From positions 1 to 64,000 of the forward strand of contig JNWL01000021.1 of the NCBI GenBank assembly GCA_000716465.1: 64,000 bases of DNA, in the 5' to 3' direction. Positions 2,651 to 28,221 of the stretch are shown one piece after another; the first letter of the stretch is position 1, and every line of letters starts with the position of its first letter. The notes beneath the pieces are model-generated. The model worked only from the letters and a program-made list of their open reading frames with translations, did not search any database and was not told the origin of the DNA. The position numbers were made by a program, and so were the translations under genes. This DNA is from Streptomyces bikiniensis (GTDB lineage Bacteria; Actinomycetota; Actinomycetes; Streptomycetales; Streptomycetaceae).

Positions 2651-2662
2651 CTACGCGCGTAG
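2651..2662 (+). promoter_or_regulatory. Nucleoside-regulon operator, site 1 (deoC)
   Basis: The sequence CTACGCGCGTAG is a perfect 12-bp palindrome ending 13 bases before the GTG, or 19 before the ATG, of deoC. Its right edge continues as TAGATA, a good -10 hexamer, so a bound protein would block the promoter. The same word recurs at four other nucleoside genes in this window. Confidence 0.8.
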
Positions 2663-2681
2663 ATATGCTCGACTGGTGACC

Positions 2682-3641
2682 ATGCCCACCACTGCACCCG
2701 CAGCTCTCGCATTCGCCGACGTGACCGCGTCCGACAGTGCGCTGCGCCGCTTCCTCCACGGGCTGCCCGGCGTCGACGCCGTCGGCCTGGAGGCGCGCGC
2801 CGCGTCCCTCGGCACCCGCTCGATCAAGACCACGGCCAAGGCGTACGCCATCGACCTGGCCATCTCCATGATCGACCTGACGACGCTCGAAGGCGCGGAC
2901 ACCCCGGGCAAGGTCCGGGCGCTCGCCGCCAAGGCCGTCAACCCCGATCCGACCGACCGCACGACCCCGACGACCGCCGCCGTCTGCGTCTACCCCGACA
3001 TGGTGGCCGCCGCCAAGGCCGCCCTCGCGGGCTCGGACGTCAAGGTCGCCTCGGTCGCCACCGCCTTCCCGGCCGGCCGCGCCGCGCTCCCCGTGAAGCT
3101 CGCGGACACCGCCGACGCCATCGCCGCCGGGGCCGACGAGATCGACATGGTCATCGACCGTGGCGCCTTCCTCGCCGGCCGCTACCTGGAGGTGTACGAG
3201 CAGATCGCCGCGATCAGGGCGGAGTGCGGCGACCGCGCCCGCCTGAAGGTGATCTTCGAGACCGGCGAGCTGTCCACGTACGACAACATCCGCCGCGCCT
3301 CCTGGCTCGGCATGATGGCCGGCGCGGACTTCATCAAGACCTCGACCGGCAAGGTCGCGGTCAACGCCACCCCGGCCAACACGCTCCTCATGCTGGAGGC
3401 CGTGCGCGACTTCCGCGCCCAGACCGGCGTGCAGATCGGCGTGAAGCCGGCCGGCGGCATCCGCAACACCAAGGAAGCGATCAAGTTCCTGGTGCTCGTC
3501 AACGAGACCGTGGGCGAGGACTGGCTGGACAACCACTGGTTCCGCTTCGGCGCCTCCAGCCTGCTCAACGACCTGCTGATGCAGCGCCAGAAGCTGGCGA
3601 CCGGCCGCTACTCCGGCCCCGATTACGTGACGGTGGACTGA
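2682..3641 (+). CDS. deoC: Deoxyribose-phosphate aldolase
   Basis: DeoC cleaves 2-deoxyribose 5-phosphate to acetaldehyde and glyceraldehyde 3-phosphate, the last step of deoxynucleoside breakdown. The 319-residue product carries both lysine motifs of the family: LKVIFETGEL and the Schiff-base FIKTSTGK. The glycine-rich phosphate-binding KPAGGI loop follows. The N-terminus is longer than in E. coli, as is usual for actinobacteria. The ATG at 2682 was chosen. A GTG two codons upstream (2676) is an equal alternative. An aldehyde dehydrogenase gene follows after 5 bases, which fits removal of the acetaldehyde product. Expression is probably repressed through the palindrome at 2651-2662. Confidence 0.95.
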   Translation: MPTTAPAALAFADVTASDSALRRFLHGLPGVDAVGLEARAASLGTRSIKTTAKAYAIDLAISMIDLTTLEGADTPGKVRALAAKAVNPDPTDRTTPTTAAVCVYPDMVAAAKAALAGSDVKVASVATAFPAGRAALPVKLADTADAIAAGADEIDMVIDRGAFLAGRYLEVYEQIAAIRAECGDRARLKVIFETGELSTYDNIRRASWLGMMAGADFIKTSTGKVAVNATPANTLLMLEAVRDFRAQTGVQIGVKPAGGIRNTKEAIKFLVLVNETVGEDWLDNHWFRFGASSLLNDLLMQRQKLATGRYSGPDYVTVD

Positions 3642-3646
3642 TCAAC

Positions 3647-5083
3647 ATGGCATCTGCATTCGAGTACGCGCCGGCGCCCGAGTCCCGGTCCGTCGTCGAC
3701 ATCGCCCCCTCCTACGGCCTGTTCATCGACGGCGAGTTCGTCGACGCGGCCGGGGGCAAGGTCTTCAAGACCGTCTCCCCCTCCACCGAGGAGGTCCTGT
3801 CCGAGGTCGCCCGCGCGGGCGCCGAGGACGTGGACCGCGCGGTGAGGGCGGCCCGCAAGGCCTTCGAGAAGTGGTCCGCGCTGCCCGGTTCCGAGCGCGC
3901 CAAGTACCTCTTCCGGATCGCCCGGATCATCCAGGAGCGCAGCCGCGAGCTGGCCGTCCTGGAGACCCTGGACAACGGCAAGCCGATCAAGGAGACCCGC
4001 GACGCGGACCTCCCCCTGGTCGCCGCGCACTTCTTCTACTACGCGGGCTGGGCCGACAAGCTCGACCACGCCGGCCACGGAGCGAACCCGCGTCCACTGG
4101 GCGTGGCCGGCCAGGTCATCCCGTGGAACTTCCCGCTGCTCATGCTGGCGTGGAAGATCGCCCCGGCGCTCGCGACCGGCAACACGGTCGTCCTGAAGCC
4201 GGCCGAGACGACCCCGCTCTCCGCCCTGTTCTTCGCGGACATCTGCCGCCAGGCCGGACTGCCGAAGGGCGTCGTCAACATCCTCCCCGGGTACGGGGAC
4301 GCGGGCGCCGCCCTGGTCGAGCACCCGGACGTGAACAAGGTCGCCTTCACCGGCTCGACCGCCGTCGGCAAGGCCATCGCGCGCTCGGTCGCGGGCACGG
4401 ACAAGAAGCTGACCCTGGAGCTGGGCGGCAAGGGCGCCAACATCGTCTTCGACGACGCCCCGATCGACCAGGCCGTCGAGGGCATCGTCAACGGCATCTT
4501 CTTCAACCAGGGCCAGGTCTGCTGCGCGGGCTCGCGCCTCCTGGTCCAGGAGTCGGTCCAGGACGAGCTGCTCGACGCGCTCAAGCGCCGCCTGTCCACG
4601 CTCCGCCTCGGCGACCCGCTGGACAAGAACACCGACATCGGCGCCATCAACTCCTCGGAGCAGCTGGCCCGCATCACCACCCTGGTCGAGCAGGGCGAGG
4701 CGGAGGGCGCCGAGCGCTGGTCGCCCGCCTGCGAACTCCCCTCCTCCGGTTACTGGTTCGCGCCGACGCTCTTCACGGGCGTCACGCAGGCGCACACCAT
4801 CGCCCGCGACGAGATCTTCGGCCCGGTCCTGTCGGTGCTCTCCTTCCGTACGCCCGACGAGGCCGTGGCGAAGGCCAACAACAGCCAGTACGGCCTGTCG
4901 GCGGGCATCTGGACGGAGAAGGGCTCCCGCATCCTCGCGGTGGCGAACAAGCTCCGGGCCGGCGTCGTCTGGGCCAACACGTTCAACAAGTTCGACCCGA
5001 CCTCGCCCTTCGGCGGCTACAAGGAGTCGGGCTTCGGCCGCGAGGGCGGCCGTCACGGTCTGGAGGCCTACCTCGATGTCTGA
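3647..5083 (+). CDS. NAD(P)-dependent aldehyde dehydrogenase
   Basis: This full-length 478-residue aldehyde dehydrogenase lies 5 bases after deoC. It has the N-terminal NAD-binding part with PWNFPLLM and the glycine loop FTGSTAVG. The general-base glutamate is in LELGGKGANIV, the catalytic cysteine in NQGQVCCAGSR, and the late motifs EIFGPVL and PFGGYKESG are present. Position in the operon suggests oxidation of the acetaldehyde released by DeoC (inference). Its 3' end overlaps the next gene by 8 bases, so the two are probably translationally coupled. A role as a subunit together with the shorter paralogue downstream is possible. Confidence 0.92.
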   Translation: MASAFEYAPAPESRSVVDIAPSYGLFIDGEFVDAAGGKVFKTVSPSTEEVLSEVARAGAEDVDRAVRAARKAFEKWSALPGSERAKYLFRIARIIQERSRELAVLETLDNGKPIKETRDADLPLVAAHFFYYAGWADKLDHAGHGANPRPLGVAGQVIPWNFPLLMLAWKIAPALATGNTVVLKPAETTPLSALFFADICRQAGLPKGVVNILPGYGDAGAALVEHPDVNKVAFTGSTAVGKAIARSVAGTDKKLTLELGGKGANIVFDDAPIDQAVEGIVNGIFFNQGQVCCAGSRLLVQESVQDELLDALKRRLSTLRLGDPLDKNTDIGAINSSEQLARITTLVEQGEAEGAERWSPACELPSSGYWFAPTLFTGVTQAHTIARDEIFGPVLSVLSFRTPDEAVAKANNSQYGLSAGIWTEKGSRILAVANKLRAGVVWANTFNKFDPTSPFGGYKESGFGREGGRHGLEAYLDV

Positions 5084-5969
5084 CGCGAACCGTCTGAGCG
5101 TCTTCAAGACCTACAAGCTGTACGTCGGGGGCAAGTTCCCCCGCTCCGAGAGCGGCCGGGTGTACGAGGTGACCGACTCCAAGGGCAAGTGGCTGGCGAA
5201 CGCGCCCCTCTCCTCCCGCAAGGACGCCCGTGACGCGGTCGTCGCCGCCCGCAAGGCCTTCGGCGGCTGGGCGGGCGCGACCGCGTACAACCGCGGCCAG
5301 ATCCTCTACCGCGTCGCCGAGATGCTGGAGGGCCGCAAGGGCCAGTTCGTGCACGAGGTCGCGGACGCCGAGGGCCTGTCCAGGAACAAGGCGGCCGTCC
5401 TCGTCGAGGCCGCGATCGACCGGTGGGTCTGGTACGCGGGCTGGACCGACAAGATCGCCCAGGTCACGGGCGGCGCCAACCCGGTCGCGGGCCCGTACTT
5501 CAACCTCTCCACCCCCGAACCGACCGGTGTCGTCACGGTCCTGGCCCCGCAGGACTCGTCCTTCCTGGGCCTGGTCTCGGTGATCGCGCCGGTGATCGCG
5601 ACGGGCAACACGGCCGTGGTGGTCGCGAGCGAGAGGGCCCCGCTCCCCGCGCTCTCCCTGGGCGAGGTGCTCGCCACCTCCGACCTGCCGGGCGGCGTGG
5701 TCAACATCCTCTCCGGCAAGGCCTCCGAGATGGGTCCGCACCTCGCGGCCCACCAGGACGTCAACGCGATCGACCTGACGGGCGCGTCCGACGACGACCT
5801 CGCCCGCGAGCTCGAGATCGCGGCGGCGGACAACCTGAAGCGCGTCCTGCGCCGCCGCACCGAGGACTTCGCGGAGTCCCCGGGCACGGACCGCATGACC
5901 GCGTTCCTGGAGACGAAGACGGTCTGGCACCCGACGGGTAGCCTGGGCGCCTCCGGCTCCTCGTACTGA
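5076..5969 (+). CDS. Half-length aldehyde dehydrogenase-like protein, no catalytic residues
   Basis: This 297-residue protein is clearly homologous to the N-terminal, NAD-binding half of aldehyde dehydrogenases (FPRSESGR, ARKAFGGW, the ATGNTAVVVASE stretch and GGVVNILSG). It ends shortly after the region where the catalytic glutamate motif should start. There is no ELGGK-type glutamate, no QxC cysteine loop and no C-terminal catalytic domain. The tail is unrelated and ends in Gly/Ser. The reading frame is open and begins inside the previous gene, so it looks like a maintained pseudoenzyme and not a random truncation. A regulatory or structural partner role for the full-length enzyme is an inference. 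Confidence 0.82.
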   Translation: MSDANRLSVFKTYKLYVGGKFPRSESGRVYEVTDSKGKWLANAPLSSRKDARDAVVAARKAFGGWAGATAYNRGQILYRVAEMLEGRKGQFVHEVADAEGLSRNKAAVLVEAAIDRWVWYAGWTDKIAQVTGGANPVAGPYFNLSTPEPTGVVTVLAPQDSSFLGLVSVIAPVIATGNTAVVVASERAPLPALSLGEVLATSDLPGGVVNILSGKASEMGPHLAAHQDVNAIDLTGASDDDLARELEIAAADNLKRVLRRRTEDFAESPGTDRMTAFLETKTVWHPTGSLGASGSSY

Positions 5970-5978
5970 AAGACGCGT

Positions 5979-6017
5979 GGGGAAGGGCCCCCGGGACGAC
6001 CCCGGGGGCCCTTCCCC
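5979..6017. terminator. Hairpin terminator after the deoC operon
   Basis: A perfect 17-bp stem (5979-5995 with 6001-6017, loop ACGAC) lies 10 bases past the last stop codon of the deoC-aldehyde dehydrogenase operon and just before the end of the opposing gene. Confidence 0.8.
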
Positions 6018-6026
6018 GCGTCCGCG

Positions 6027-6425
6027 TTACGGGAGCAGCCCCTGCGTCAGCGGTCCGACCACCGGCAGGTCCGCCACGGCCCCGCCCCTGGTGACGTGGT
6101 CGGTGACCAGGTTCGTGCCGACCGGCTTGAAGTCGGCGACCTGGGTGCCGAGTCCGTTGTCGAGGGGGTCGACCCCGGTGCCGGCCAGCGGGTTGAGCTT
6201 GAGCTGGGTCAGCGGGCCCAGGGCGTAGCCGACCCCGTCGAGCGCGCCCGTGCCGGCCGCGCCCGTGTCCGTCCTGGTCAGGCCGTCGAGCGGCAGCGGC
6301 ACCGGGGCGGCGGCCTGGGCCCCGGCCCCCGCGCCGACCAGCGCGGCGCCCGCCGCCGTGACGGTCAGTCCGGCCTTGAGCAGGGCGCTGCGACGGGAGG
6401 TGCTGGGGGCTGCGTGACGCGCCAT
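6027..6425 (-). CDS. Secreted hypothetical protein with Tat-like signal
   Basis: This product of about 132 residues starts MARHAAPSTSRRSALLK, which resembles a twin-arginine signal. An Ala/Gly-rich hydrophobic segment follows, with a likely cleavage at AQAA-AP. The mature part (about 95 residues) is low in charge and rich in Leu, Gly, Pro and Val, with phrases such as PLPLDGL and LNPLAGTGVDPL. It has no cysteines and no enzyme motif. It resembles in style the secreted protein at 12196-12573. The start at 6425 was chosen because the signal peptide begins there, although an in-frame extension upstream exists. Function unknown. Confidence 0.65.
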   Translation of the reverse strand: MARHAAPSTSRRSALLKAGLTVTAAGAALVGAGAGAQAAAPVPLPLDGLTRTDTGAAGTGALDGVGYALGPLTQLKLNPLAGTGVDPLDNGLGTQVADFKPVGTNLVTDHVTRGGAVADLPVVGPLTQGLLP

Positions 6426-6542
6426 GGCGTTCCTTCCAGGGGGTGTTCGGGCGGACACCGACAGTAGTGGAGGTGTGACGCCCGATACCAACGCCCTCCC
6501 TGGGGGTCCCCTGCACGGGGGAATGCCTCACACTGGTGTTCC

Positions 6543-7175
6543 GTGAGTTCCCAACCGATCCCGACCCGGGTCGTCCTGCTGACGGGCCCCTCCGGCTCCG
6601 GCAAGTCGTCCCTCGCCGCCGTCACCGGCCTCCCGGTCCTGCGCCTCGACGACTTCTACAAGGAGCACGACGACCCGTCGCTCCCGCTCGTCGCCGGCAG
6701 TTCGGACATCGACTGGGACTCGCCGCAGTCCTGGGACGCGGACGCCGCCGTCTCCGCCGTCGTCGAGCTGTGCCGCACGGGGCGGACCGACGTCCCCGTG
6801 TACGACATCGCCACCAGCTCCCGGACGGGCCGGGAGGGTCTGGACATCGGGCGGACCCCGCTGTTCGTGGCGGAGGGGATCTTCGCGGCCGAGATCGTGG
6901 CCCGCTGCCGCGACCTCGGCGTCCTGGCCGACGCGATCTGTCTGCGCGGCCGCCCCTCGACCACGTTCCGCCGCCGGCTCGCCCGGGACCTCAGGGAGGG
7001 CCGCAAGTCGGTGCCGTTCCTGCTGCGCCGGGGCTGGCGCCTGATGCGGGCCGAACGCGCGATCGTGGCCCGCCAGGCGGAGCTGGGCGCCCACCCCTGT
7101 GCCAAGCCGGAGGCCCTGGGCCGGCTGGCCGCCGCCGCGGCGGGCCGCCACCGCACCCCGGCCGCCCGCCCGTAG
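6543..7175 (+). CDS. Uridine kinase-like P-loop kinase
   Basis: This 210-residue protein opens with a Walker A loop, LLTGPSGSGKSS (residues 12-23). It continues with LRLDDFYKEHDD, the acidic substrate-binding segment typical of uridine/cytidine kinases, and IDWDSPQSWD. A C-terminal region rich in arginine follows (FRRRLARDLREGRKS), probably the lid. Uridine kinases phosphorylate uridine or cytidine, and that would fit the many nucleoside genes in this window, but this gene has no copy of the shared palindrome. A strong hairpin terminator follows. Substrate assignment is by family only. Confidence 0.82.
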   Translation: MSSQPIPTRVVLLTGPSGSGKSSLAAVTGLPVLRLDDFYKEHDDPSLPLVAGSSDIDWDSPQSWDADAAVSAVVELCRTGRTDVPVYDIATSSRTGREGLDIGRTPLFVAEGIFAAEIVARCRDLGVLADAICLRGRPSTTFRRRLARDLREGRKSVPFLLRRGWRLMRAERAIVARQAELGAHPCAKPEALGRLAAAAAGRHRTPAARP

Positions 7176-7212
7176 GGGCTCCCCCGACACGCGAGGACGC
7201 GCGAGAACACGC

Positions 7213-7265
7213 AAGAAGCGGACCGTACGAGACCCCCGGGCCCGTACGATCCGCTTCTTCCTTTT
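7213..7265 (+). terminator. Intrinsic terminator of the uridine-kinase-like gene
   Basis: A 10-bp outer stem (7213-7222 with 7250-7259) encloses a second repeat (CGTACG at both sides), and the sequence runs into CTTCCTTTT. This is a classic Rho-independent layout, rare in such GC-rich DNA. Confidence 0.8.
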
Positions 7266-7372
7266 CCCCCGTACCCCCGTACGGTTCCCCCGTGCTTCCC
7301 CCGCGAGCCCCGTTTCCCCCGTGGGCTCCCGTGGGTCCCCCCCCTGCTTTCCCCCGTGTTTCCCCCCGGCCT

Positions 7373-8095
7373 TCAGGCCACCAGCTCGCCGAAGGACTCC
7401 TCCTCGTCACGGCCGAAGCTCAGCACCTCGTCCTCGCGCAGTCGCCGCAGCGAGCGCCAGATGCTCGACTTCACCGTGCCGACACTGATGTCCAGGATCT
7501 CCGCGATCTCCGGATCGGTCCGGCCCTCGTAGTACCGCAGCACCAGCATCGTGCGCTGGAGCTCGGGCAGTCGGGCCAGCGCCTGCCACAGGACCGCGCG
7601 CAGTTCGGTGCCCCGCATCGCGTCCGTCTCGCCGACCGTCTCCGGCAGCTCCTCGGTGGGGTACTCGTTGAGCTTGCGGCGGCGCCAGGCGCTGATGTGC
7701 AGATTGGTCATGGTCCGGCGGAGGTACCCTCCGACCGCGGCCTTGTCGCTGATCCGGTCCCAGGCGCGGTACGTGGAGAACAGCGCGCTCTGGAGCAGGT
7801 CCTCGGCCTCGAAACGGTCACCGGTGAGGTGGTAGGCGGTGGCGTACAGGGAGGCCCGACGCTCCTGGACGTAGGCCGTGAACTCGGCCTCCGAACAACC
7901 GGGGCGTTCCCCCGTGGCCTCCCCGTACACCGCTCCCCCGTCAGCGACGGCCACCATGTACGGCGCCTTGCGCTGACGTCCGACGCTGCGAACGCACCCC
8001 CGTCCGTTCTGCGCGCCGGACTTCTCCGTGCTCCTGACGACATCGTGGAGACGCGTGACAACTGCGCCGGAGTTCGTGCTGTGCAGTGCGTTCAT
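7373..8095 (-). CDS. sigQ: RNA polymerase sigma factor SigQ (SigE-like ECF family)
   Basis: This 240-residue ECF sigma factor is divergent from afsQ1. The core has region 2 (FEAEDLLQSALFSTYRAWDRI) and region 4 with its helix-turn-helix (TDPEIAEILDISVGTVKSSIWRSL). A long N-terminal stretch of about 75 residues, starting MNALHSTNSGAVVTRLHD, precedes the core. The start at 8095 is chosen from this N-terminal motif and is less certain. Divergence from the afsQ1/afsQ2 pair matches the known Streptomyces sigQ-afsQ1 arrangement, in which AfsQ1 acts on the shared intergenic region. An AfsQ1-type box is visible there. Confidence 0.9.
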   Translation of the reverse strand: MNALHSTNSGAVVTRLHDVVRSTEKSGAQNGRGCVRSVGRQRKAPYMVAVADGGAVYGEATGERPGCSEAEFTAYVQERRASLYATAYHLTGDRFEAEDLLQSALFSTYRAWDRISDKAAVGGYLRRTMTNLHISAWRRRKLNEYPTEELPETVGETDAMRGTELRAVLWQALARLPELQRTMLVLRYYEGRTDPEIAEILDISVGTVKSSIWRSLRRLREDEVLSFGRDEEESFGELVA

Positions 8096-8180
8096 CTCGC
8101 GCCCCCCGTCGGCTGGAGTGTGTTTCGGTCCGTGTGCCAAGAAGCTTGCCCCGGGGACTTCATGGCGCTGTCCGCCGACT

Positions 8181-8196
8181 GTCACAGGCGTGTCAC
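8181..8196. promoter_or_regulatory. AfsQ1-type box between sigQ and afsQ1
   Basis: The sequence GTCAC-N6-GTCAC matches the direct-repeat consensus GTnAC-n6-GTnAC described for AfsQ1. It lies in the 170-bp divergent region, 85 bp before the sigQ start and 69 bp before afsQ1. It could therefore serve autoregulation and control of sigQ. Confidence 0.75.
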
Positions 8197-8265
8197 AGGG
8201 CCTGTCGCGGACAGCGTGCTTCCCGACGGTCGAACTCGGACGGCCGCATGGGACAGAATGCTGCC

Positions 8266-8943
8266 GTGCCTTTTCTGTTGCTGATCGAGGACGACGACGC
8301 CATCCGTACGGCCCTTGAGCTGTCCCTGTCCCGGCAGGGCCACCGGGTGGCCACCGCCGCCACGGGCGAGGACGGCCTCCAGCTGCTGCGCGAGCAGCGG
8401 CCGGACCTGGTCGTGCTCGACGTCATGCTGCCCGGCATCGACGGCTTCGAGGTGTGCCGGCGGATCCGCCGGACCGATCAGCTGCCGATCATCCTGCTGA
8501 CCGCGCGCAGCGACGACATCGACGTGGTCGTGGGCCTGGAGTCCGGGGCGGACGACTACGTCGTCAAGCCCGTGCAGGGCCGGGTCCTGGACGCCCGCAT
8601 CCGGGCCGTGCTGCGGCGCGGGGAGCGGGAGTCGACGGACTCGGCGACGTACGGCTCGCTGGTCATCGACCGGTCCGCGATGACGGTCACCAAGAACGGC
8701 GAGGACCTCCAGCTGACCCCGACCGAGCTGCGGCTGCTCCTGGAGCTGAGCCGGCGGCCCGGACAGGCGCTGTCCCGGCAGCAGTTGCTGCGGCTGGTGT
8801 GGGAGCACGACTACCTGGGCGACTCGCGGCTCGTGGACGCCTGTGTGCAGCGGCTGCGGGCCAAGGTGGAGGACGTGCCGTCCTCCCCGACCCTGATCCG
8901 CACCGTGCGCGGCGTCGGCTACCGGCTGGACGTCCCTGCGTGA
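8266..8943 (+). CDS. afsQ1: Response regulator AfsQ1 (OmpR family)
   Basis: This 225-residue two-component regulator has an N-terminal receiver domain (LLLIEDDDAIRTAL) with phospho-acceptor Asp52 in VVLDVMLPG and the conserved Lys in VVKPVQG. The C-terminal winged helix is of OmpR type (LTPTELRLLLELS and RTVRGVGYRLD). The chosen GTG gives the same length as the known AfsQ1. In Streptomyces AfsQ1/AfsQ2 affect antibiotic production and nitrogen-related responses (established for S. coelicolor). The gene overlaps afsQ2 by 4 bases (GTGA), indicating coupled translation. Confidence 0.95.
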   Translation: MPFLLLIEDDDAIRTALELSLSRQGHRVATAATGEDGLQLLREQRPDLVVLDVMLPGIDGFEVCRRIRRTDQLPIILLTARSDDIDVVVGLESGADDYVVKPVQGRVLDARIRAVLRRGERESTDSATYGSLVIDRSAMTVTKNGEDLQLTPTELRLLLELSRRPGQALSRQQLLRLVWEHDYLGDSRLVDACVQRLRAKVEDVPSSPTLIRTVRGVGYRLDVPA

Positions 8944-11140: not shown

Positions 11141-11189
11141 GTCGTCGCGCGGCGGAACCGATTCCGCTCCCGGGCACGTCTTGGGGGGC

Positions 11190-12098: not shown

Positions 12099-12115
12099 GT
12101 CGCCCGTACGCGCCG

Positions 12116-12751: not shown

Positions 12752-13906
12752 TCAGCCCTCCGTACGGGAAGATCCGCTGGTCGCAGCGGTCTGCTGGAAC
12801 AGCCATTCGGACCGGAGCTCGGCGTATCCGGGCTTGATGACCTCATTGATCATGGCCAGTCGTTCATCGAAAGGAATGAACGCCGACTTCATCGCATTGA
12901 CAGAAAACCATTGCATGTCGTCAAGCGTGTAATCGAACGCCTCGGTCAGCAGCTCGAATTCCCGGCTCATGCTCGTACCGCTCATCAAGCGGTTGTCGGT
13001 GTTGACGGTGGCACGGAAATGAAGCTTCCGGAGCAGTCCGATGGGGTGCTCGGCGATCGAGGCGGCGGCGCCGGTCTGGAGGTTGGAGGAGGGGCACATC
13101 TCCAGCGGGATCCGCTTGTCCCGGACGTAGGCGGCGAGCCGGCCCAGCTCCACCGAGCCGTCGTCCGCGACCTCGATGTCGTCGATGATCCGGACGCCGT
13201 GGCCGAGGCGGTCGGCGCCGCACCACTGGAGCGCCTGCCAGATGGAGGGCAGCCCGAAGGCCTCGCCGGCGTGGATCGTGAAGTGGTTGTTCTCCCGCTT
13301 GAGGTACTCGAAGGCGTCGAGGTGGCGGGTGGGCGGGTAGCCGGCCTCGGCGCCCGCGATGTCGAAGCCGACGACGCCGGAGTCGCGGTAGGCGTTGGCG
13401 AGTTCGGCGATCTCCAGGGAGCGGGCGGCGTGCCGCATGGCGGTGAGCAGGGCGCCGACCCGGATGCGGTGGCCGTTCGCCCTGGCCTGCCGCTCGCCCT
13501 CGCGGAAGCCCGCGTTGACGGCCTCCACGACCTCTTCGAGGGTGAGTCCGCCCTCCAGGTGCTGCTCGGGGGCGTAGCGGACCTCCGCGTACACGACGCC
13601 GTCCTCGGCGAGGTCGGCGGCGCACTCGGCGGCGACGCGGAAGAGGGCCTCCCGGGTCTGCATGACGGCGCAGGTGTGCGCGAAGGTCTCCAGGTACCGC
13701 TCCAGGGAACCGGAGTCGGCGGCCTCCCTGAACCAGGCGCCGAGCTTGTCGGGTTCGGTCTCGGGAAGGTTCTCGTAGCCCTGCTCGCGGGCGAGTTCGA
13801 CGATCGTGCCGGGGCGCAGCCCGCCGTCGAGGTGGTCGTGGAGCAGCACCTTCGGGGCGCGGCGGATCTGGTCCGCGGTGGGGACGCTGTGGGTCTGGCT
13901 CGTCAT
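12752..13906 (-). CDS. add: Adenosine deaminase
   Basis: This 384-residue zinc enzyme converts adenosine or deoxyadenosine to inosine or deoxyinosine. Metal ligands are visible as H23-D-H25 (LLHDHLDGG), the histidine of HAGEAFG, and the aspartate of NTDNRLMSG. The catalytic glutamate lies in HAGE. Length is in the family range. It is transcribed alone. A perfect copy of the shared palindrome ends 16 bases before the ATG, and a TAGAGT -10-like hexamer lies between the two. The transcript may therefore start at or very near the ATG, and repression of this promoter during absence of nucleosides is likely. Confidence 0.95.
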
Positions 13907-13922: not shown

Positions 13923-13934
13923 CTACGCGCGTAG
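13923..13934 (-). promoter_or_regulatory. Nucleoside-regulon operator, site 2 (add)
   Basis: A perfect copy of CTACGCGCGTAG stands 16 bases upstream of the add ATG. On the minus strand TAGAGT, a -10-like hexamer, follows it directly, so the palindrome would occupy the promoter spacer. Confidence 0.8.
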
Positions 13935-15154: not shown

Positions 15155-15157
15155 GGG

Positions 15158-19675: not shown

Positions 19676-19726
19676 GTCCGATGAGACCGGCCGGGGGCCG
19701 GGAACTCATCGGAGGCCCCTCCGGCC

Positions 19727-19762
19727 AGGGCCTGTCCGACCCTGATCCGCCGGACAGGCCCT
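19727..19762. repeat. Dispersed palindromic repeat, copy 2 (terminator-like)
   Basis: An 11-bp inverted repeat (19727-19737 with 19752-19762) shares 25 identical bases (19737-19761) with the repeat after the hydrolase at 15185-15209. It lies between divergent genes, so a terminator role here is less obvious. Confidence 0.7.
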
Positions 19763-19774
19763 AGGCTCCCGATC

Positions 19775-21024: not shown

Positions 21025-21063
21025 GGTGTGCTCCTCAGTCGGTCGTCACCGATCCCAGCATGC

Positions 21064-21099
21064 CGAACGGGACCGGTGGGGTTCCACCGGTCCCGTTCG
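21064..21099. terminator. Terminator after deoA
   Basis: A perfect 16-bp stem (21064-21079 with 21084-21099, 4-base loop) lies 32 bases beyond the deoA stop codon on the minus strand and upstream of the Uma2 gene. Confidence 0.8.
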
Positions 21100-21130
21100 C
21101 CCGAAAGTGTCAGGCGCATATGCCAGAACG

Positions 21131-22408
21131 TCAGGCGATGCGGTCCAGGACGATCGGGGAGGGCGTGAAGGCCGTGCCCGTCGGGGCGATGTCCCAGGTG
21201 TTCTCCAGGGAGCCCAGGGCGTAGTCGAACTTCTCCGGGGTGTCCGTGTGGAGGGTCAGGAGGGGCTGGCCCGCCGTGACCGTGTCGCCCGGCTTGGCGT
21301 GGAGTTCGACGCCCGCGCCCGCCTGTACCGCGTCCTCCTTGCGGGCGCGGCCCGCGCCCAGGCGCCAGGCGGCGATGCCGATGTCGTAGGCGTCGAGGCG
21401 GGTCAGGACGCCGGAGGACGGGGCCGTCACGACGTGCTGCTCGCGGGCGACCGGCAGGTTCGCGTCCGGGTCGCCGCCCTGGGCCGCGATCATCCGGCGC
21501 CAGACGTCCATCGCGGAGCCGTCGGCGAGGGCCTTCGCCGGGTCGGCGTCCTTGATCCCGGCCGCGTCGAGCATCTCGCGGGCCAGGGCGATCGTCAGCT
21601 CGACGACGTCCGCCGGGCCGCCGCCCGCGAGGACCTCGACGGACTCGCGGACCTCCAGGGCGTTGCCCGCGGTGAGGCCGAGCGGGGTCGACATGTCGGT
21701 GAGGAGCGCGACCGTCTTCACGCCGCTGTCGGTGCCGAGCCGGACCATGGTGGAGGCCAGCTCGCGGGCGTCCTCGATGTTCTTCATGAAGGCGCCGGTG
21801 CCGACCTTGACGTCCAGGACGAGCGAGCCCGTGCCCTCGGCGATCTTCTTGGACATGATCGAGGAGGCGATCAGCGGGATCGCCTCGACCGTGCCCGTCA
21901 CGTCGCGGAGCGCGTACAGCTTCTTGTCCGCCGGGGCGAGGCCGTCGCCCGCCGCGCAGATGACCGCGCCGGTGGTGTCGAGGACGTGCAGCATCTCCTC
22001 GTTGGAGAGCAGCGCGCGCCAGCCGGGGATCGACTCCAGCTTGTCGAGGGTGCCGCCGGTGTGGCCGAGGCCCCGGCCGGAGAGCTGCGGCACGGCCGCG
22101 CCGCAGGCGGCGACGAGCGGGGCCAGCGGGAGGGTGATCTTGTCGCCGACTCCGCCGGTGGAGTGCTTGTCGGCGGTGGGGCGGGAGAGCGAGGAGAAGT
22201 CCATGCGCTCGCCGGAGGCGATCATGGCCGCGGTCCAGCGGGCGATCTCGTCGCGGTTCATGCCGTTCAGCAGGATCGCCATGGCCAGGGCCGACATCTG
22301 CTCGTCGGCGACCGCGCCCCGGGTGTACGCGTCGATGACCCAGTCGATCTGCTCGGGGCTCAGCTCGCCCTTGTCCCGCTTCGTACGGATGACGGAGATG
22401 ACGTCCAT
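21131..22408 (-). CDS. deoA: Thymidine phosphorylase
   Basis: This 425-residue pyrimidine-nucleoside phosphorylase splits thymidine or deoxyuridine with phosphate to the base and 2-deoxyribose 1-phosphate. The family signature is visible as SGRGLGHTGGTLDKLESIPG. Also present are the phosphate-binding KHSTGGVGDK region and the C-terminal barrel-sandwich domain (ELHAKPGDTVTAGQPLLTLHTD). It sits downstream of cdd but is separated by a hairpin terminator and has its own operator, so it is an independent transcription unit. An AAAGAGG ribosome site precedes the ATG. Confidence 0.96.
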   Translation of the reverse strand: MDVISVIRTKRDKGELSPEQIDWVIDAYTRGAVADEQMSALAMAILLNGMNRDEIARWTAAMIASGERMDFSSLSRPTADKHSTGGVGDKITLPLAPLVAACGAAVPQLSGRGLGHTGGTLDKLESIPGWRALLSNEEMLHVLDTTGAVICAAGDGLAPADKKLYALRDVTGTVEAIPLIASSIMSKKIAEGTGSLVLDVKVGTGAFMKNIEDARELASTMVRLGTDSGVKTVALLTDMSTPLGLTAGNALEVRESVEVLAGGGPADVVELTIALAREMLDAAGIKDADPAKALADGSAMDVWRRMIAAQGGDPDANLPVAREQHVVTAPSSGVLTRLDAYDIGIAAWRLGAGRARKEDAVQAGAGVELHAKPGDTVTAGQPLLTLHTDTPEKFDYALGSLENTWDIAPTGTAFTPSPIVLDRIA

Positions 22409-22424
22409 GGGGTGGTGCCTCTTT

Positions 22425-22436
22425 CTACGCGCATAG
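22425..22436 (-). promoter_or_regulatory. Nucleoside-regulon operator, site 3 (deoA)
   Basis: CTACGCGCATAG has one change from the perfect palindrome and stands 16 bases before the deoA ATG, the same spacing as at add. On the minus strand the edge forms TAGAAA, a -10-like hexamer. Confidence 0.78.
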
Positions 22437-22448
22437 AGGGTGAAAGGA

Positions 22449-22484
22449 GGAGCGGCCCTCCCATCGTGCCGGAAGGGCCGCTCC
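22449..22484 (-). terminator. Terminator between cdd and deoA
   Basis: An 11-bp perfect inverted repeat (22449-22459 and 22474-22484) lies just past the cdd stop codon. It separates the nucleoside ABC-cdd operon from deoA. Confidence 0.75.
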
Positions 22485-22490
22485 GAAGTG

Positions 22491-22895
22491 CTACTTGGAC
22501 AGGTGGTCCGGGCCGAAGGCCTGCGGGAGCATGTCGGCCAGGGGCAGCAGCCCGGCCGGGGTCTCCAGGACGAGGTCGGGGCCCCCGAACTCGTACAGGA
22601 GCTGCCGGCAGCGCCCGCAGGGGACCAGGGGCTCGCCCCGGCCGTCCACGCAGACGAAGTGGGTCAGCCGGCCGCCGCCGGTCGCCTGGAGCTGCGAGAC
22701 GAGCCCGCACTCGGCGCACAGGCCGAGGCCGAAGGAGGCGTTCTCCACGTTGCAGCCGGAGACCGTCCGCCCGTCGTCCACGAGGGCCGCCGCGCCGACC
22801 GGGTAGCCCGAGTACGGGGCGTACGCGCGGGACATCGCCTCGCGCGCCGTGACCCGCAGGGCCTCCCAGTCGGCCTCGGAGAGCTCCGCGGTCAC
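22491..22895 (-). CDS. cdd: Cytidine deaminase
   Basis: This 134-residue enzyme deaminates cytidine and deoxycytidine to the uridine forms. Zinc ligands and catalytic glutamate are in CNVENASFGLGLCAECG (C-x-E pattern) and PCGRCRQLL, typical of the small homotetrameric type. Its GTG start overlaps the stop of the upstream permease gene (GTGA), so translation is coupled and cdd is the last gene of the nucleoside uptake operon. Its product, uridine or deoxyuridine, is a substrate for DeoA encoded next door. Confidence 0.95.
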   Translation of the reverse strand: MTAELSEADWEALRVTAREAMSRAYAPYSGYPVGAAALVDDGRTVSGCNVENASFGLGLCAECGLVSQLQATGGGRLTHFVCVDGRGEPLVPCGRCRQLLYEFGGPDLVLETPAGLLPLADMLPQAFGPDHLSK

Positions 22896-24154
22896 TTGCC
22901 CTGGCCCTTCCGGTAGGGCAGTCCGTCCGCCTTCGGCATCCTCAGGCGCTGCGCCGACAGGGCGAGCACGAGCAGGGTGGTGACGTACGGGGCGGCGTCG
23001 ACGAACTGGCTCGGGACCTCGTCGGTCAGCGCGTACCAGAGGAAGAACCCGGCGGCGAAGACGGCGGAGACCACCCCGACCACGTACTTCTTCCGGTACA
23101 GCTGCCAGAGGGCGGCGATCACCAGGAGCAGCGCGACCAGGAGCAGCAGCGCGTGGACGTTCTCGGCGCCGCCGCGCAGCTTGAGGCTGTCGGTGAAGCC
23201 GAAGAGTCCGGCGCCGAGCGCCATGCCGCCGGGCATCCAGTTGCCGAAGATCATCGCGGCGAGGCCGATGTAGCCGCGGCCGCCGGTCTGGCCCTCCTGG
23301 TAGATGCCGGTGGCGACGATCGCGAGGAAGGCGCCGCCGAGGCCGGCGAGGGCGCCGGAGACGGTGACGGCGATGTACTTGTACTTGTAGACGTTGACGC
23401 CCAGGGACTCGGCGGCGACCGGGTTCTCGCCGCAGGAGCGCAGCCGCAGGCCGAAGGCCGTGCGCCACAGCACCCACCAGGTGGCCGGGATCAGCAGGAT
23501 CGCGACGACGGTGAGCAGCGACAGGTTGGTGACCAGGCCGCCGAGGATGCCCGCGAGGTCGGAGACCAGGAACCAGTGCTTGGCCTGGAGGTCCTGCAAC
23601 CAGTCGGAGAGCCCCGGAATGGTGATCTTGGTGATCTGCTCGATGCGGGGGGACTGCTTGGAGGAGCCGCCCGGGGCCTCGGCGAACGTGAAGTTCGACA
23701 GGTACTGGGTGAAGCCGACCGCAAGGATGTTGATCGCCACACCGGAGACGATGTGGTTCACGTTGAACGTGACGGTGATGACGGCGTGGAGCAGACCGCC
23801 GATCGCACCGCCGACGAGGCCGAAGAGGACGCCCGTCCAGGGGCCCCACTGGTAGCCGGCCCAGGCGCCGAACCAGGTGCCGAGGACCATCATGCCTTCG
23901 AGGCCGATGTTGACGACGCCCGCGCGCTCGGCCCACAGACCGCCGAGACCGGCGAGGCCGATCGGGACGGCGAGCTGGAGGGCGCCGGAGACCTGGCCCA
24001 CGGAGGTGAGGTCGTCGGCCCCGGAGACGACCCGGACCAGCGAGAAGAGCACGAGGCCGGCCGCGACGATCAGCATGATCCACGGCAGGGTGAGCTTGCG
24101 GCGTCCGCCGCCCTTGGGCGCGGCGCTCGGCTTGGTGGCAGCGGCGGTGCTCAT
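22892..24154 (-). CDS. Nucleoside ABC transporter permease, second subunit
   Basis: This 420-residue BPD_transp_2-type inner-membrane permease has about 10 hydrophobic segments and the typical ERAGVVNIGLEGMMVLGTWFG motif near the N-terminal third. A conserved GGxxGAL-like cytosolic loop contacts the ATPase. It pairs with the permease encoded just upstream, with a 4-base overlap. The mate ATPase and a BMP-type binding lipoprotein make this a nucleoside importer of the Bacillus/Streptococcus YufPQ or Lactococcus Nup type (family knowledge). Confidence 0.92.
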   Translation of the reverse strand: MSTAAATKPSAAPKGGGRRKLTLPWIMLIVAAGLVLFSLVRVVSGADDLTSVGQVSGALQLAVPIGLAGLGGLWAERAGVVNIGLEGMMVLGTWFGAWAGYQWGPWTGVLFGLVGGAIGGLLHAVITVTFNVNHIVSGVAINILAVGFTQYLSNFTFAEAPGGSSKQSPRIEQITKITIPGLSDWLQDLQAKHWFLVSDLAGILGGLVTNLSLLTVVAILLIPATWWVLWRTAFGLRLRSCGENPVAAESLGVNVYKYKYIAVTVSGALAGLGGAFLAIVATGIYQEGQTGGRGYIGLAAMIFGNWMPGGMALGAGLFGFTDSLKLRGGAENVHALLLLVALLLVIAALWQLYRKKYVVGVVSAVFAAGFFLWYALTDEVPSQFVDAAPYVTTLLVLALSAQRLRMPKADGLPYRKGQGK

Positions 24155-25269
24155 GCCGAGACCTCCTTGTCGGTCTTGAGGGCGCCGCCGGCGGCGAGTT
24201 CCTCGCCGACCTTCTGCTGCTGGCGGCGGAGGCCGTAACGGCGGACGAGCTCGTAGGAGACGACCACGGCGATCACGATGATGCCCTGCATGATCTTGGT
24301 GATCTCCTTCGGGTAACCGAAGGTGTCGAGCGACGAGGACGCCTTGTCGAGGAAGGCGAAGAGGAGGGCGGCGAAGAGGATGCCGACCGGGTGGTTGCGG
24401 CCGAGCAGCGCGATGGTGATGGCGGTGAAGCCGACGCCGACCGGGAAGTCGAGGCTGTACGTGTGGGACTCGCCGAGCAGCGTCGGCATGCCGGAGAGGC
24501 CGGCGAGCGCGCCCGAGAGCAGCATCGAGGTGAGGATCATCCGCTTGGCGTCGACGCCGCTGGCCTGGGCGGCGGACTCGCTGGCGCCGGTGGCGCGCAG
24601 GTCGAAGCCGAACCGGGTGCGGTTGAGGACGAACCAGTAGACGACGCCGAGCGCGAGCGCGACGAACGTGAAGCCGTAGACGACGCCGTTGCCCTGGCCC
24701 ATGTCGATGCCGGGGAACCAGCCGGACTCGGCGATCTCACCGGTGGTGAGGTTGTTGGAGCCCTCGGGCTGGACGCCGAAGTTCTTCGGCAGGATCAGCC
24801 AGGCCACCAGGGAGGTCGCGATGGCGTTGAGCATGATCGTCGAGACGACCTCGGAGACGCCTCGGGTCGTCTTGAGGATGCCGGCGATGCCGGACCAGAA
24901 GGCGCCGGTCAGCATCGCGACGAGCACGATCAGGAGGATGTGCAGCGGGCCCGGCAGCTCGACGGAGGCGCCCACGAGGGCGGAGACCATCGCGGCGAGC
25001 CGGTACTGGCCGTCGACGCCGATGTTGAAGAGGTTCATCCGGAAGCCGACCGCCACGGCGAGGGCCGCGAGGTAGTAGATCCCGGTCTGGTTGACGATCA
25101 GGACCTGGATGTCGGAGTACCCGGCGTTCTCGATCATGATCCGGATCGGCTCGATCGGGTCGAGTCCGGTCGCGAGCAGCACCAGCACGGTGAGCACGAA
25201 CGAGGAGACCAGCGCGAGCACCGGTCCCGCCGCGCCCAGGATCAGCCGGTCCTTGTCGAATTTCATCAT
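24151..25269 (-). CDS. Nucleoside ABC transporter permease, first subunit
   Basis: This 372-residue integral membrane protein of the BPD_transp_2 family has about 8-10 helices, with the motif MNLFNIGVDGQYRLAAM corresponding to the conserved NIGxEGQ segment of nucleoside and sugar permeases. Later conserved pieces are TRFGFDLRATGASESAAQASGVDAKRM and LLGRNHPVGILFAALLFAFL. It overlaps the ATPase gene upstream and the second permease downstream by 4 bases each, so the subunits are translated together. Confidence 0.92.
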   Translation of the reverse strand: MMKFDKDRLILGAAGPVLALVSSFVLTVLVLLATGLDPIEPIRIMIENAGYSDIQVLIVNQTGIYYLAALAVAVGFRMNLFNIGVDGQYRLAAMVSALVGASVELPGPLHILLIVLVAMLTGAFWSGIAGILKTTRGVSEVVSTIMLNAIATSLVAWLILPKNFGVQPEGSNNLTTGEIAESGWFPGIDMGQGNGVVYGFTFVALALGVVYWFVLNRTRFGFDLRATGASESAAQASGVDAKRMILTSMLLSGALAGLSGMPTLLGESHTYSLDFPVGVGFTAITIALLGRNHPVGILFAALLFAFLDKASSSLDTFGYPKEITKIMQGIIVIAVVVSYELVRRYGLRRQQQKVGEELAAGGALKTDKEVSA

Positions 25270-26906
25270 CGGGCGTCACCGTCTTCGGACTGCTCTTCGG
25301 TGCCTTCGAGGTGGCCGGAGGCCGCGCCGGTCATGGCGGAGCCCAGCTCCTCGGGCGTGATGGTGGCAGGGTCGGCGTCGGCGACCAGCTTGCCGCGGTA
25401 CATGACCCGGAGGGTGTCGGAGAGGCCGATCAGCTCGTCGAGGTCGGCGGAGATCAGCAGCACCGCCAGGCCCTCGCGGCGGGCGTCCCGGATCGCGTCC
25501 CAGATCTGCGCCTGCGCGCCGACGTCCACGCCGCGGGTGGGGTGGGCGGCGATCAGGAACTTGGGGGCGTGGCTCATCTCGCGGCCGACGATCAGCTTCT
25601 GCTGGTTGCCGCCGGAGAGGGAGGCCGCGGTGACGTCGATGCCGGGGGTGCGCACGTCGTACTCGCGGACGATCCGCTCGGTGTCCTTGCGGGCGGCCTT
25701 GGGGTCGAGGACGCCGCGCTTGGAGTTGGGGGCCTCGGTGACGTGGCCGAGAATGCGGTTCTCCCAGAGGGGGGCCTCCAGGAGCAGGCCGTGGCGGTGC
25801 CGGTCCTCGGGGATGTAGCCGATGCCGCCCTCGCGGCGCTTGCGCACCGAGACCCTGGAGATGTCCCGGCCGTCGAGGGTGATCACTCCGGAGTCCGGGG
25901 TGGCCATGCCCATGAGGGCCTCGATGAGCTCGGTCTGGCCGTTGCCCTCGACGCCCGCGATGCCGAGGATCTCGCCCTTGTGGATGGTGAGGGAGACGTC
26001 GTCGAGGAGCTTGCGGCCCTCGGTGCTCTCCTCCAGGACGGTGGTGGCCCTGGCCGGGTCCGGCGGGGCCGCGCTGGTCAGCGGGGCCGCGGCGACGGCG
26101 CCGGCCTCGGACAGGGTCAGGTTGCGGACCTGGAGCATCGGCACGTCGGTGACGGTCGACTCGCGGGTCTCCGGGGAGGGCAGCTCGCTGCCGACCATCA
26201 GCTCGGCGAGCTGCTTGGTGGTGGCGGTCCTCGGGTCGGCGGTGCCGACCGTGGTGCCCCGGCGGATGACGGTGATGTCGTCGGCGACCTTCAGGACCTC
26301 GCCCAGCTTGTGCGAGATGAAGATGACGGTCAGGCCCTCGGACTTGAGCTCGCGCAGGTTGTCGAAGAGCGCGTCGACCTCCTGCGGGACGAGCACGGCG
26401 GTCGGCTCGTCGAGGATGAGGATGCGGGCGCCGCGGTAGAGGACCTTGAGGATCTCCACGCGCTGCCGGTCGGCGACGCCGAGGTCCTCGACCAGGGCGT
26501 CCGGGCGGACCCCGAGGCCGTACTGGTCGGAGATCTCCAGGATCTTCTTCCGGGCCTTGGCGCCGATGCCGTGGAGCTTCTCGCCGCCGAGGACGACGTT
26601 CTCCAGGACGGTGAGGTTGTCGGCGAGCATGAAGTGCTGGTGCACCATGCCGATGCCGCGCGCGATGGCGTCACCGGGGCTGGAGAAGGTGACCTGCTCG
26701 CCGTCGACGGCGATGGTGCCCTCGTCCGGCTTCTGCATGCCGTAGAGGATCTTCATGAGGGTCGACTTGCCGGCGCCGTTCTCGCCGATGAGGGCGTGCA
26801 CGGTGCCCTTGCGGACCGTGATGGCGATGTCCTTGTTGGCGACGACGCCGGGGAATCGCTTGGTGATGCCGTGCAGTTCTACGGCAGGGGGGCTGGACGC
26901 GTTGAT
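25266..26906 (-). CDS. Nucleoside ABC transporter ATP-binding protein (two ABC domains), probable AUC start
   Basis: This ATPase of about 546 residues has two tandem nucleotide-binding domains. The first has Walker A GENGAGKST and LGVADRQRVEILK in place of the LSGGQ-type signature. The second has Walker A-like GVEGNGQTEL and SLSGGNQQKL. This asymmetry is typical of the MglA/RbsA/YufO group. Start choice is unusual. The AAGGAG ribosome site at 26915-26920 precedes an in-frame ATC at 26906 by 8 bases, and no ATG, GTG, TTG or CTG lies between it and 26981. The alternative ATG at 26981 sits inside the -10-like element. Overlap with the permease gene is 4 bases. Confidence 0.88.
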   Translation of the reverse strand: MNASSPPAVELHGITKRFPGVVANKDIAITVRKGTVHALIGENGAGKSTLMKILYGMQKPDEGTIAVDGEQVTFSSPGDAIARGIGMVHQHFMLADNLTVLENVVLGGEKLHGIGAKARKKILEISDQYGLGVRPDALVEDLGVADRQRVEILKVLYRGARILILDEPTAVLVPQEVDALFDNLRELKSEGLTVIFISHKLGEVLKVADDITVIRRGTTVGTADPRTATTKQLAELMVGSELPSPETRESTVTDVPMLQVRNLTLSEAGAVAAAPLTSAAPPDPARATTVLEESTEGRKLLDDVSLTIHKGEILGIAGVEGNGQTELIEALMGMATPDSGVITLDGRDISRVSVRKRREGGIGYIPEDRHRHGLLLEAPLWENRILGHVTEAPNSKRGVLDPKAARKDTERIVREYDVRTPGIDVTAASLSGGNQQKLIVGREMSHAPKFLIAAHPTRGVDVGAQAQIWDAIRDARREGLAVLLISADLDELIGLSDTLRVMYRGKLVADADPATITPEELGSAMTGAASGHLEGTEEQSEDGDAR

Positions 26907-26981
26907 GACGCACTCTCCTTGGCCGGAAGGAGTGGGAGCGGGAGGGCAGGGCGGGGCGAAGTTATCGTGCCAGGGAGACAT

Positions 26982-26993
26982 CTACACGCGTAG
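26982..26993 (-). promoter_or_regulatory. Nucleoside-regulon operator, site 4 (nucleoside ABC operon)
   Basis: CTACACGCGTAG has one change from the perfect palindrome. On the minus strand its edge continues into TAGATG, a -10-like hexamer at 26984-26979. It precedes the ATPase-permease-permease-cdd operon. Confidence 0.78.
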
Positions 26994-27026
26994 CGCTGCC
27001 GAAAGATGAAAATCCGTACGGGAACG

Positions 27027-27065
27027 GGGCCCGGCTCCGGTGGGGGTCCCACCGTCGCCGGGCCC
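27027..27065 (-). terminator. Terminator after the BMP lipoprotein gene
   Basis: Nested perfect stems (outer 27027-27035 with 27057-27065, inner 27038-27044 with 27048-27054) lie 24 bases after the lipoprotein stop. They separate it from the ABC operon, which has its own operator. Confidence 0.78.
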
Positions 27066-27088
27066 TGAGGTCGTTGACCTGCGGTTCC

Positions 27089-28147
27089 TTACGGAGCGGT
27101 CTTGACCGTGATCTTGCCGTCGACGATGTTCTTCTTCGCCTCGTTCACGGCGGCGATGACGTCGGTCATCTTCTTGTACGCCGGGTTGGACTCGGACAGG
27201 CCGACGCCGTCCTGGGCCAGGCCGTAGCGGATCTCGCCGCTCTGCGGCTTGCCGTCCTTGACCGACTTGATCAGGTTGAAGACGGAGTCCGAGACGTCCT
27301 TGGTGACCGAGGTCAGGATGTGGTCCTTGTAGGAGGCCAGACCCGCCTGGTTGTACTGGTCGGAGTCGACGCCGATGGCCCACTTGTCCGCGGCGGCGGC
27401 GGCCTCGATGGAGCCCGAACCGGCCAGACCGGCGGCGGCGTAGATCACGTCGGCGCCCTTGTCGAGCTGGCCCTGCGCGGCGGCCTTGCCGAGGTCGGGC
27501 TTGGAGAAGCCGTCGAAGTTCGGCGGCTGGGTCAGGTACTGGACGAGCACCTTCGCCTTGGGGTTGGTGTCCTTGACGCCCTGCGCGAAGCCCGCCTCGA
27601 ACTTCTTGATCAGCGGGACCTCGACGCCGCCGATGAAGCCGACCGTGCCGGTCTTCGACGTCTTGGCGGCGGCGACGCCGGCCAGGTAGGAGCCCTGCTC
27701 CTCGTTGAAGACGAGGTTGGCGATGTTCGGGGCGGTCACCGAGGTGTCGTCGATGAGGCCGAAGGTGGTCTTCGGGTAGGCCTTGGCGACCTTGGCGATC
27801 GCCGGGGCGTAGGCGAAGCCGACGCCGATGACCGGGTTGTTCCCGGCGCGGGCGAGGGCGGTGAGGCGCTGCACCTTGTCGGCGTCGCCCTCGCCCTCCG
27901 AGGGCTCGGCCTCGGTGCCCTTGACACCGAGCTCGTCCTCGGCCTTCTTCAGACCCGCGTAGGCGGCGTCGTTGAAGGACTGGTCGCCGCGGCCGCCGAT
28001 GTCGTACGCGATGGCGGCCGTGATGTTCTTCGAGTCCGAGGCGGAGCTGGAACCGGCGTCCGTCGAGGACTTGCCACACGCGGTGGCGGAGAGGGCGAGC
28101 GCCGCGGAGGCGATGCCCACGGTCGTGATCCTGGTGATCCGGCGCAA
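27089..28147 (-). CDS. BMP-family nucleoside-binding lipoprotein
   Basis: This 352-residue substrate-binding protein of the Bmp/Med family has a signal peptide ending in the lipobox SATAC and a Ser/Asp-rich linker. The periplasmic-binding fold then starts at TAAIAYDIGGRGDQSFNDAAYAGLKKA, with NPVIGVGFAYAPAIAKVAKAYP, FIGGVEVPLIKKFEAGF and ADVIYAAAGLAGSGSIEAA. Homologues bind purine and pyrimidine nucleosides for ABC importers. The start is a TTG at 28147. It is a single-gene unit in front of the ABC operon, which would allow the binding protein to be made in excess. Confidence 0.93.
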   Translation of the reverse strand: MRRITRITTVGIASAALALSATACGKSSTDAGSSSASDSKNITAAIAYDIGGRGDQSFNDAAYAGLKKAEDELGVKGTEAEPSEGEGDADKVQRLTALARAGNNPVIGVGFAYAPAIAKVAKAYPKTTFGLIDDTSVTAPNIANLVFNEEQGSYLAGVAAAKTSKTGTVGFIGGVEVPLIKKFEAGFAQGVKDTNPKAKVLVQYLTQPPNFDGFSKPDLGKAAAQGQLDKGADVIYAAAGLAGSGSIEAAAAADKWAIGVDSDQYNQAGLASYKDHILTSVTKDVSDSVFNLIKSVKDGKPQSGEIRYGLAQDGVGLSESNPAYKKMTDVIAAVNEAKKNIVDGKITVKTAP

Positions 28148-28209
28148 GAGGAGGGTCCCTTCAAGACTGACCGAAAGCGCCTCTTCCGGCGCTGGTTTCG
28201 CGGCGATCG

Positions 28210-28221
28210 TAACGCGCGTAG
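28210..28221 (-). promoter_or_regulatory. Nucleoside-regulon operator, site 5 (BMP lipoprotein)
   Basis: The minus strand reads CTACGCGCGTTA, two changes at one end from the perfect palindrome, and overlaps TACGAT (28211-28206), a good -10 hexamer. The site is 62 bases before the TTG start, leaving room for a short leader. Confidence 0.7.

Follow-up and report, generated by a model that had tools for sequence, protein, structure and literature searches.

The first 64,000 nucleotides of contig JNWL01000021.1 of Streptomyces bikiniensis (contig C21 of a genome of 7,388,885 bases; we call this stretch the window) hold several genes of nucleoside uptake and salvage, and copies of a 12-bp palindrome, here called the word, stand before five of these units. 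This raises the question of whether the units are controlled together, and by what kind of regulator. An earlier note on this DNA had proposed a single repressor. We found that one operator word is common to the uptake and salvage units, at predicted core promoters, and that the conserved palindrome extends to TCTACGCGCGTAGA. Judging from sequence, TCTACGCGCGTAGA is most probably the operator of one dimeric repressor over nucleic-acid scavenging genes across the Streptomyces family (Streptomycetaceae). The same palindromic word was found at several unlinked promoters of one pathway. Its raw counts are unremarkable, so the signal lies in the position of the copies and in their conservation. The proposal of a single repressor was supported in part: the shared word stands, and the predicted regulon has many more members than the five units.

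The five copies in the window were confirmed where they had been claimed. An exact copy (2651..2662, no strand assigned) precedes deoC, which encodes deoxyribose-phosphate aldolase (2682..3641, plus strand; NCBIfam TIGR00126, 178 bits against a cut-off of 117). Two aldehyde dehydrogenase genes, ald1 and ald2 (3647..5969, plus strand; Pfam Aldedh), come after deoC here and in the family loci holding that region, and are predicted to belong to the same operon. The other exact copy (13923..13934, no strand assigned) lies before add, the adenosine deaminase gene (12752..13906, minus strand; Pfam A_deaminase, NCBIfam above cut-off). One-mismatch copies stand before deoA and before the nucleoside ATP-binding cassette (ABC)-cdd operon. 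The former, CTATGCGCGTAG (22425..22436, minus strand), precedes the thymidine phosphorylase gene (21131..22408, minus strand; NCBIfam PRK05820, above cut-off). The latter, CTACGCGTGTAG (26982..26993, minus strand), is 180 bases upstream of the called start of the ABC ATPase, in an operon that also encodes two permeases and cytidine deaminase, Cdd (22491..26801, minus strand; Pfam ABC_tran, BPD_transp_2 and dCMP_cyt_deam_1; cdd above its NCBIfam cut-off). The fifth copy, CTACGCGCGTTA with two mismatches (28210..28221, minus strand), lies before a gene for a BMP/PnrA-like binding lipoprotein that is predicted to bind nucleosides (27089..28147, minus strand; Pfam Bmp). The gene identities given in the earlier note thus hold, and so do its smaller claims: the hexamers TAGATA, TAGAAA, TAGATG and TACGAT are present at four sites, TAGAGT lies four bases past the word at add, the word is 16 bases from the start codon at add and deoA alike, and no regulator can be seen within the window. 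At 37404 there is a sixth copy; it has two mismatches, lies between two convergent genes and hence has no promoter position.

In the 7.39 Mb of the whole genome the word occurs exactly three times, whereas 0.3 to 0.8 exact copies are expected by chance from the window composition. All three lie before nucleoside genes: deoC, add and the gene for purine nucleoside phosphorylase (PNP). The PNP copy is outside the window, on contig C19, 81 bases upstream of the PNP start; the closest named PNP locus is that of Streptomyces sp. NK15101, which is 99% identical. Beside the exact copies there are 16 one-mismatch places. The test of whether the word also stands at chance frequency before unrelated genes was run genome-wide for zero or one mismatch, and ten of the 19 places were at nucleic-acid genes. 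These ten are the three exact copies, deoA, the ABC operon, two nucleotidases, purS-purQ-purL, a permease and a pyrimidine operon. Both nucleotidases are secreted nucleotidase-type phosphoesterases, one of them cyclic-phosphodiesterase-like, and the permease is of the Xan_ur_permease family (purine-type). The pyrimidine operon encodes a carbon-nitrogen hydrolase, an aminotransferase and a dihydropyrimidinase, the last above its NCBIfam cut-off, and is read as a predicted route of reductive pyrimidine breakdown. A looser form, CTAYNCGCGT, lies 82 bases upstream of an ExeM/NucH-like (DNase-like) endonuclease gene, whose family score is below the cut-off, and 22 bases upstream of a nucleoside/nucleotide kinase family gene, whose score is over it. 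Separately, we observed CTACCCGCGTCC ten bases before the start of a PucR-type regulator gene with weak NCBIfam matches (L199:2533-4161); this is a possible but weak link to purine catabolism. A single weak site at locus L208 is 229 bases upstream of purF and falls within the end of a different gene.

Conservation of the word was followed across the family. It occurs exactly in all 61 genomes of the genus, with 2 to 6 copies each against 0 to 3 for a control word, and in 80 of 81 genomes of the family, covering 16 of 17 genera (own genome included in both counts). The only family genome without it, G262, has copies with one mismatch at deoC and with two at PNP. We also fetched 80 named records by PNP (1.40 Mb), 79 titled Streptomyces and one titled Microtetraspora glauca. 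Their 117 exact copies all lie before PNP (80) or deoC (37), and every named locus that holds deoC with at least 150 bases upstream carries the exact copy there (37/37). The record titled Microtetraspora glauca (L259, JOFO01000041.1) carries the word, and its PNP is 97% identical to this Streptomyces PNP; the strain is probably mislabelled or misclassified.

In the fetched family loci, sites with at most two mismatches were sought from 300 bases upstream to 30 downstream of each gene start. Sites were found at deoC in 20/20 loci (all with zero or one mismatch), at PNP in 23/23, at add in 14/14 (all exact), at the first gene of the ABC operon, abcA, in 11/11 (all with zero or one mismatch) and at bmp in 11/11, here invariably as the variant CTACGCGCGTTA. 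Nine control genes had a site in only 1 of 147 upstream regions; PHdom was left out of the controls because it shares the deoC upstream region. Secreted nucleotidase and purS genes were searched separately, over 250 bases upstream at the same threshold of mismatches. All 15 genomes having the nucleotidase gene have the site, and 12 of 27 genomes have no match to the gene at threshold; purS has a site in 20 of 27 genomes. Furthermore, the deoC-ald block is inverted in genome G183 and the LysR-add block in G108 relative to other genomes, and the word is retained at the gene start in both, which shows that the site moves with its gene.

Exact copies were also found away from these promoters. In five genomes the exact word is carried by a second add gene, which lies on a different contig or at a distance of megabases. 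In this gene the word forms bases 8-19 (codons 3-7) of the predicted frame (L104:6672, L113:6995, L134:5283, L135:5303 and L136:5626), so that these bases seem to serve as coding and as operator sequence at once. Eight extra exact copies lie outside the main cluster (G174, G267, G278, G302 and G317), and seven of them precede purS (one, in G174), purN (three, in three genomes of two other genera) or a gene for a secreted protein (three). The secreted protein with the palindrome upstream (L112:7604-9304, L141:3247-4917 and L142:5011-6480) comes from three genomes of one genus. Two of these three proteins were scanned, and no clear family was found for either; the protein may be an unrecognised nuclease or nucleic-acid binding protein.

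The range of the word ends near the border of the family. Exact copies occur in 9 of 177 genomes of the class outside it. In seven of the nine, none lies by a reference nucleoside gene, save for a 29% ABC ATPase match in G246; the copies of G152 and G199 were left out of this check. The deoA gene is present in 37 of 40 outside genomes. In the 20 outside deoA loci fetched, gene order is largely kept, but no copy with zero or one mismatch was found, and a two-mismatch copy occurs in 1 of 69 gene upstream regions. No equivalent word emerged there either, as the commonest exact dyad, TCGGGCCCGA, is in only 6 of these 69. Because the outside loci largely keep the gene order without the word at zero or one mismatch, the predicted operator seems to have arisen within the family, on a gene cluster that is older.

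The arrangement of the word and the promoters, which we read from sequence, was compared among sites. At add, PNP, nucleotidase and bmp, the 11 columns of TCTACGCGCGT are conserved at 98-100%, whereas the 37 preceding columns are conserved at 48-66%; each row was fixed at its best match without realignment, and indels therefore depress the flank values. The palindrome is lengthened by its flanks to the form ATCTAC..GTAGAT in several purS copies. The word overlaps or adjoins the predicted core promoter at the five window sites and in the family alignments. At deoC, add and bmp the predicted -10 starts inside the word or within a few bases of it; the predicted -10 region of deoC (2660..2669, plus strand) consists of TAGATA overlapping TATGCT, and GTAGATATGCT beside the word is kept in aligned loci. 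At PNP and purS the predicted -10 starts 12 to 14 bases after the word, which would place the word on the -35 region there. At add, six bases separate the end of TAGAGT from the ATG. The add transcript and perhaps that of deoC look leaderless, and deoC may in truth begin, without a leader, at the in-frame GTG of position 2676. Placement of the word over or beside the predicted core promoters fits steric repression. Two further repeats were seen at these promoters. Four of 15 nucleotidase promoters (L181, L189, L190 and L191) hold tandem CTACGCGCGT copies with a 14-base period, a direct repeat and not a palindrome. The PNP promoter of this genome (L001:1533-1550) has a second half-site pair, CTACGC-N6-GCGTAG, 20 bases past the palindrome, which is partly kept in relatives.

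Several observations weigh against an operator of one dimeric repressor. The window holds six copies with at most two mismatches against 4.21 expected (standard deviation 2.00), and 26 of 100 shuffles reach six; we therefore rejected word frequency in the window as evidence, and the test had to be positional. Genome-wide, the 185 copies with at most two mismatches are fewer than the 379 of the reversed control word. Nine of the 19 places with at most one mismatch have no relation to nucleic acids: five are inside coding sequence, and the others are at the rpoB start, at the 3' end of a gene, where no gene is called nearby, and intergenic by other genes. The looser form falls at 28 different places, of which 11 belong to nucleic-acid genes and the remaining 17 do not or are doubtful; it matches 17 and 14 times on the two strands, and the reversed control 15 and 15 times. 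The 19 further exact-copy loci comprise 13 at salvage, import or purine genes, two at the secreted protein and four at unrelated genes or without a called gene. Among the five units, deoA is the weakest member across species, with the site kept in 5 of 12 family loci and missing in 7; purS lacks it in 7 of 27 genomes. The sites at the permease, the pyrimidine operon, the DNase, the kinase and the second nucleotidase are known from one genome only, and the permease site lies between divergent genes, closer to the other (small) one. P values of the control comparisons are a guide only, since the genomes share descent and the values overstate independence. Finally, we infer protein binding, repression and the presence of a single protein from these sequences, and that a single protein would serve salvage and purSQ alike is a supposition.

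Could the pattern arise without a dedicated repressor, or with more than one? Chance clustering of a common word would agree with the ordinary window count at two mismatches. Its probability is practically nil, as it is refuted by the 117 exact copies that all stand before two genes and by the near-empty control upstreams. The word might also be a conserved promoter element of the extended -10 type, since at four window sites it shares bases with a -10-like hexamer, and at add such a hexamer lies four bases away. However, the distance to the likely -10 varies from overlap to the 12-14 bases of PNP and purS, the word is palindromic, and its exact copies in the 80 named loci precede two genes only, which makes a promoter element highly improbable. 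Another possibility is that the word is shared by at least two related regulators, of which one would serve nucleoside catabolism and another purine synthesis and uptake. The two gene groups differ in physiology, many sites at purS have a variable fourth and fifth base with the 3' half intact, and nucleotidase sites keep TCTACGCGCGT and lose the 3' arm. On the other hand, the core and the length of the word are the same in both groups and 16 of 27 purS copies are one base off the consensus, so we regard such a division of labour as rather improbable.

One candidate for the repressor itself is a DeoR-family protein whose gene lies 2 to 9 kb from PNP (L016:15022-15984 in this genome); it would sense a sugar phosphate from nucleoside breakdown. 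In each of the 21 family loci with both genes, the distance between them is 2.2 to 8.8 kb, and 20 of 21 proteins agree in all of the N-terminal 58 residues. Among solved structures, the deoxyribose operon repressor is the one relative at E<1e-5, matched over its sensor domain. An ortholog is present in 81 of 81 family genomes, although universal presence gives little discrimination. Against this candidate, no site with at most two mismatches was found upstream of deoR in 21 family loci and 77 named loci. The protein scores 187 bits with NCBIfam AgaR and 74 bits with DeoR (DeoR cut-off 244), all below cut-offs, and by NCBIfam it is not a DeoR equivalog. The motif SEVTVRRD is kept in 16 of 20 DeoR homologues outside the family, where other helix-turn-helix (HTH) residues differ, and neither the word nor a reference deo gene is present in any of these 20 loci. 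In three outside loci read by eye, GATC-like repeats stand beside the DeoR-family gene. In L074, L075 and L076 the neighbours of the homologues are genes for sugar-type ABC transporters or glycosidase-like proteins, and GATC-rich repeats fill the space between, suggesting that the outside homologues serve a different, sugar-related regulon. We consider it unlikely that the DeoR-family protein is the repressor. Its S. coelicolor counterpart is presumably SCO4920. SCO4920 is the centre of a network module (PMC3224704) and is in a table of regulators affected in glucose experiments (PMC4848846); the available parts of both sources give no nucleoside link. Two other neighbours were considered. For the TetR gene next to deoR, 17 of the 59 named loci with enough space lack a match, and the word is retained in all 17. 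The LysR gene near add has no site with at most two mismatches upstream in 15 loci, and some 8 kb separate it from add in G183; besides, a site with an even centre is not of the LysR kind. The LacI resemblance named in the earlier note is not supported in that form: it consists of the central C|G, and no LacI protein was tied to the word. LacI-HTH matches in the genome number 15, and none is on the two contigs with exact copies. The regulator gene was not found among the candidates checked, which include the DeoR-family neighbour and the TetR gene beside deoR, and the gene of the repressor is probably unlinked to its targets.

We thus return to one dimeric repressor that reads TCTACGCGCGTAGA. 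Bound there, it would block RNA polymerase at the target promoters, and a nucleotide-derived signal would release it. The nuclease and the nucleotidases would then make nucleosides, and the BMP-ABC system would import them. PNP, Add, DeoA and Cdd would open the nucleosides, DeoC and the aldehyde dehydrogenases would burn deoxyribose, the pyrimidine operon would degrade uracil, the permease and the kinase would recover bases and nucleosides, and purSQ would supply the rest. Target functions are here assigned by family, and joint control is what we infer. The signal had been predicted to be a nucleoside or deoxyribose phosphate, which is one option only; the sites at purS (20/27) and purN (three genomes) fit simple nucleoside induction poorly. 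Because these sites are hard to reconcile with it, release when purine supply falls is favoured, though unproven. We give about even chances to the wider idea that a repressor confined to Streptomycetaceae, through one operator of 14-16 bp, governs the complete path by which external DNA and RNA become nucleotides, and de novo purine synthesis with it; such a repressor would be a purine and nucleic-acid master switch of the antibiotic producers.

How does this compare with known systems? The E. coli DeoR regulon likewise places deoC, deoA and PNP under one operator. However, the E. coli operator word differs, the linked protein here scores poorly to the DeoR model, and the target list is much wider. 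The arms TCTA..TAGA recall TetR-type operators, and XdhR is a TetR-family protein. RutR, whose operator is TTGACCA-N2-TGGTCAA, differs from the predicted system in its word, and the regulon here adds secreted nucleotidases and a nucleoside ABC importer. In LacI operators the base three from the centre is mostly A, whereas here it is C. As for regulons already described, E. coli RutR (TetR family) is a single regulator that coordinates pyrimidine and purine metabolism (PMC10891134), a span that the repressor predicted here would share. E. coli PurR controls purine synthesis and CytR the response to nucleosides, both of the LacI family (PMC4052901). Their operators resemble the present word as even palindromes centred on C|G, but there two regulators do what one word covers here. 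In Bacillus thuringiensis, NupR (GntR/HutC) regulates nucleoside permease genes (PMC9430930). Unlike the word here, its site is a 20-bp imperfect GntR-type sequence, its effector is zinc, and no salvage or purine synthesis targets are described in the accessible part of that source. Within the same genus, Streptomyces XdhR also controls purine salvage; its named targets, the xdh operon and actinorhodin regulators (PMC6627660), differ from those found here. In the open-access literature searched, as far as its texts were available and with RegPrecise outside that search, we found neither this operator nor its regulon described.

According to the available text of PMC6627660, ppGpp and c-di-GMP draw on the purine supply and have an influence on differentiation and antibiotic production. 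If true, the regulon would provide a specific 14-bp probe for fishing out the missing regulator. It would also explain how Streptomyces switches between nucleotide synthesis and the recycling of nucleic acids, such as those of its own dying mycelium.

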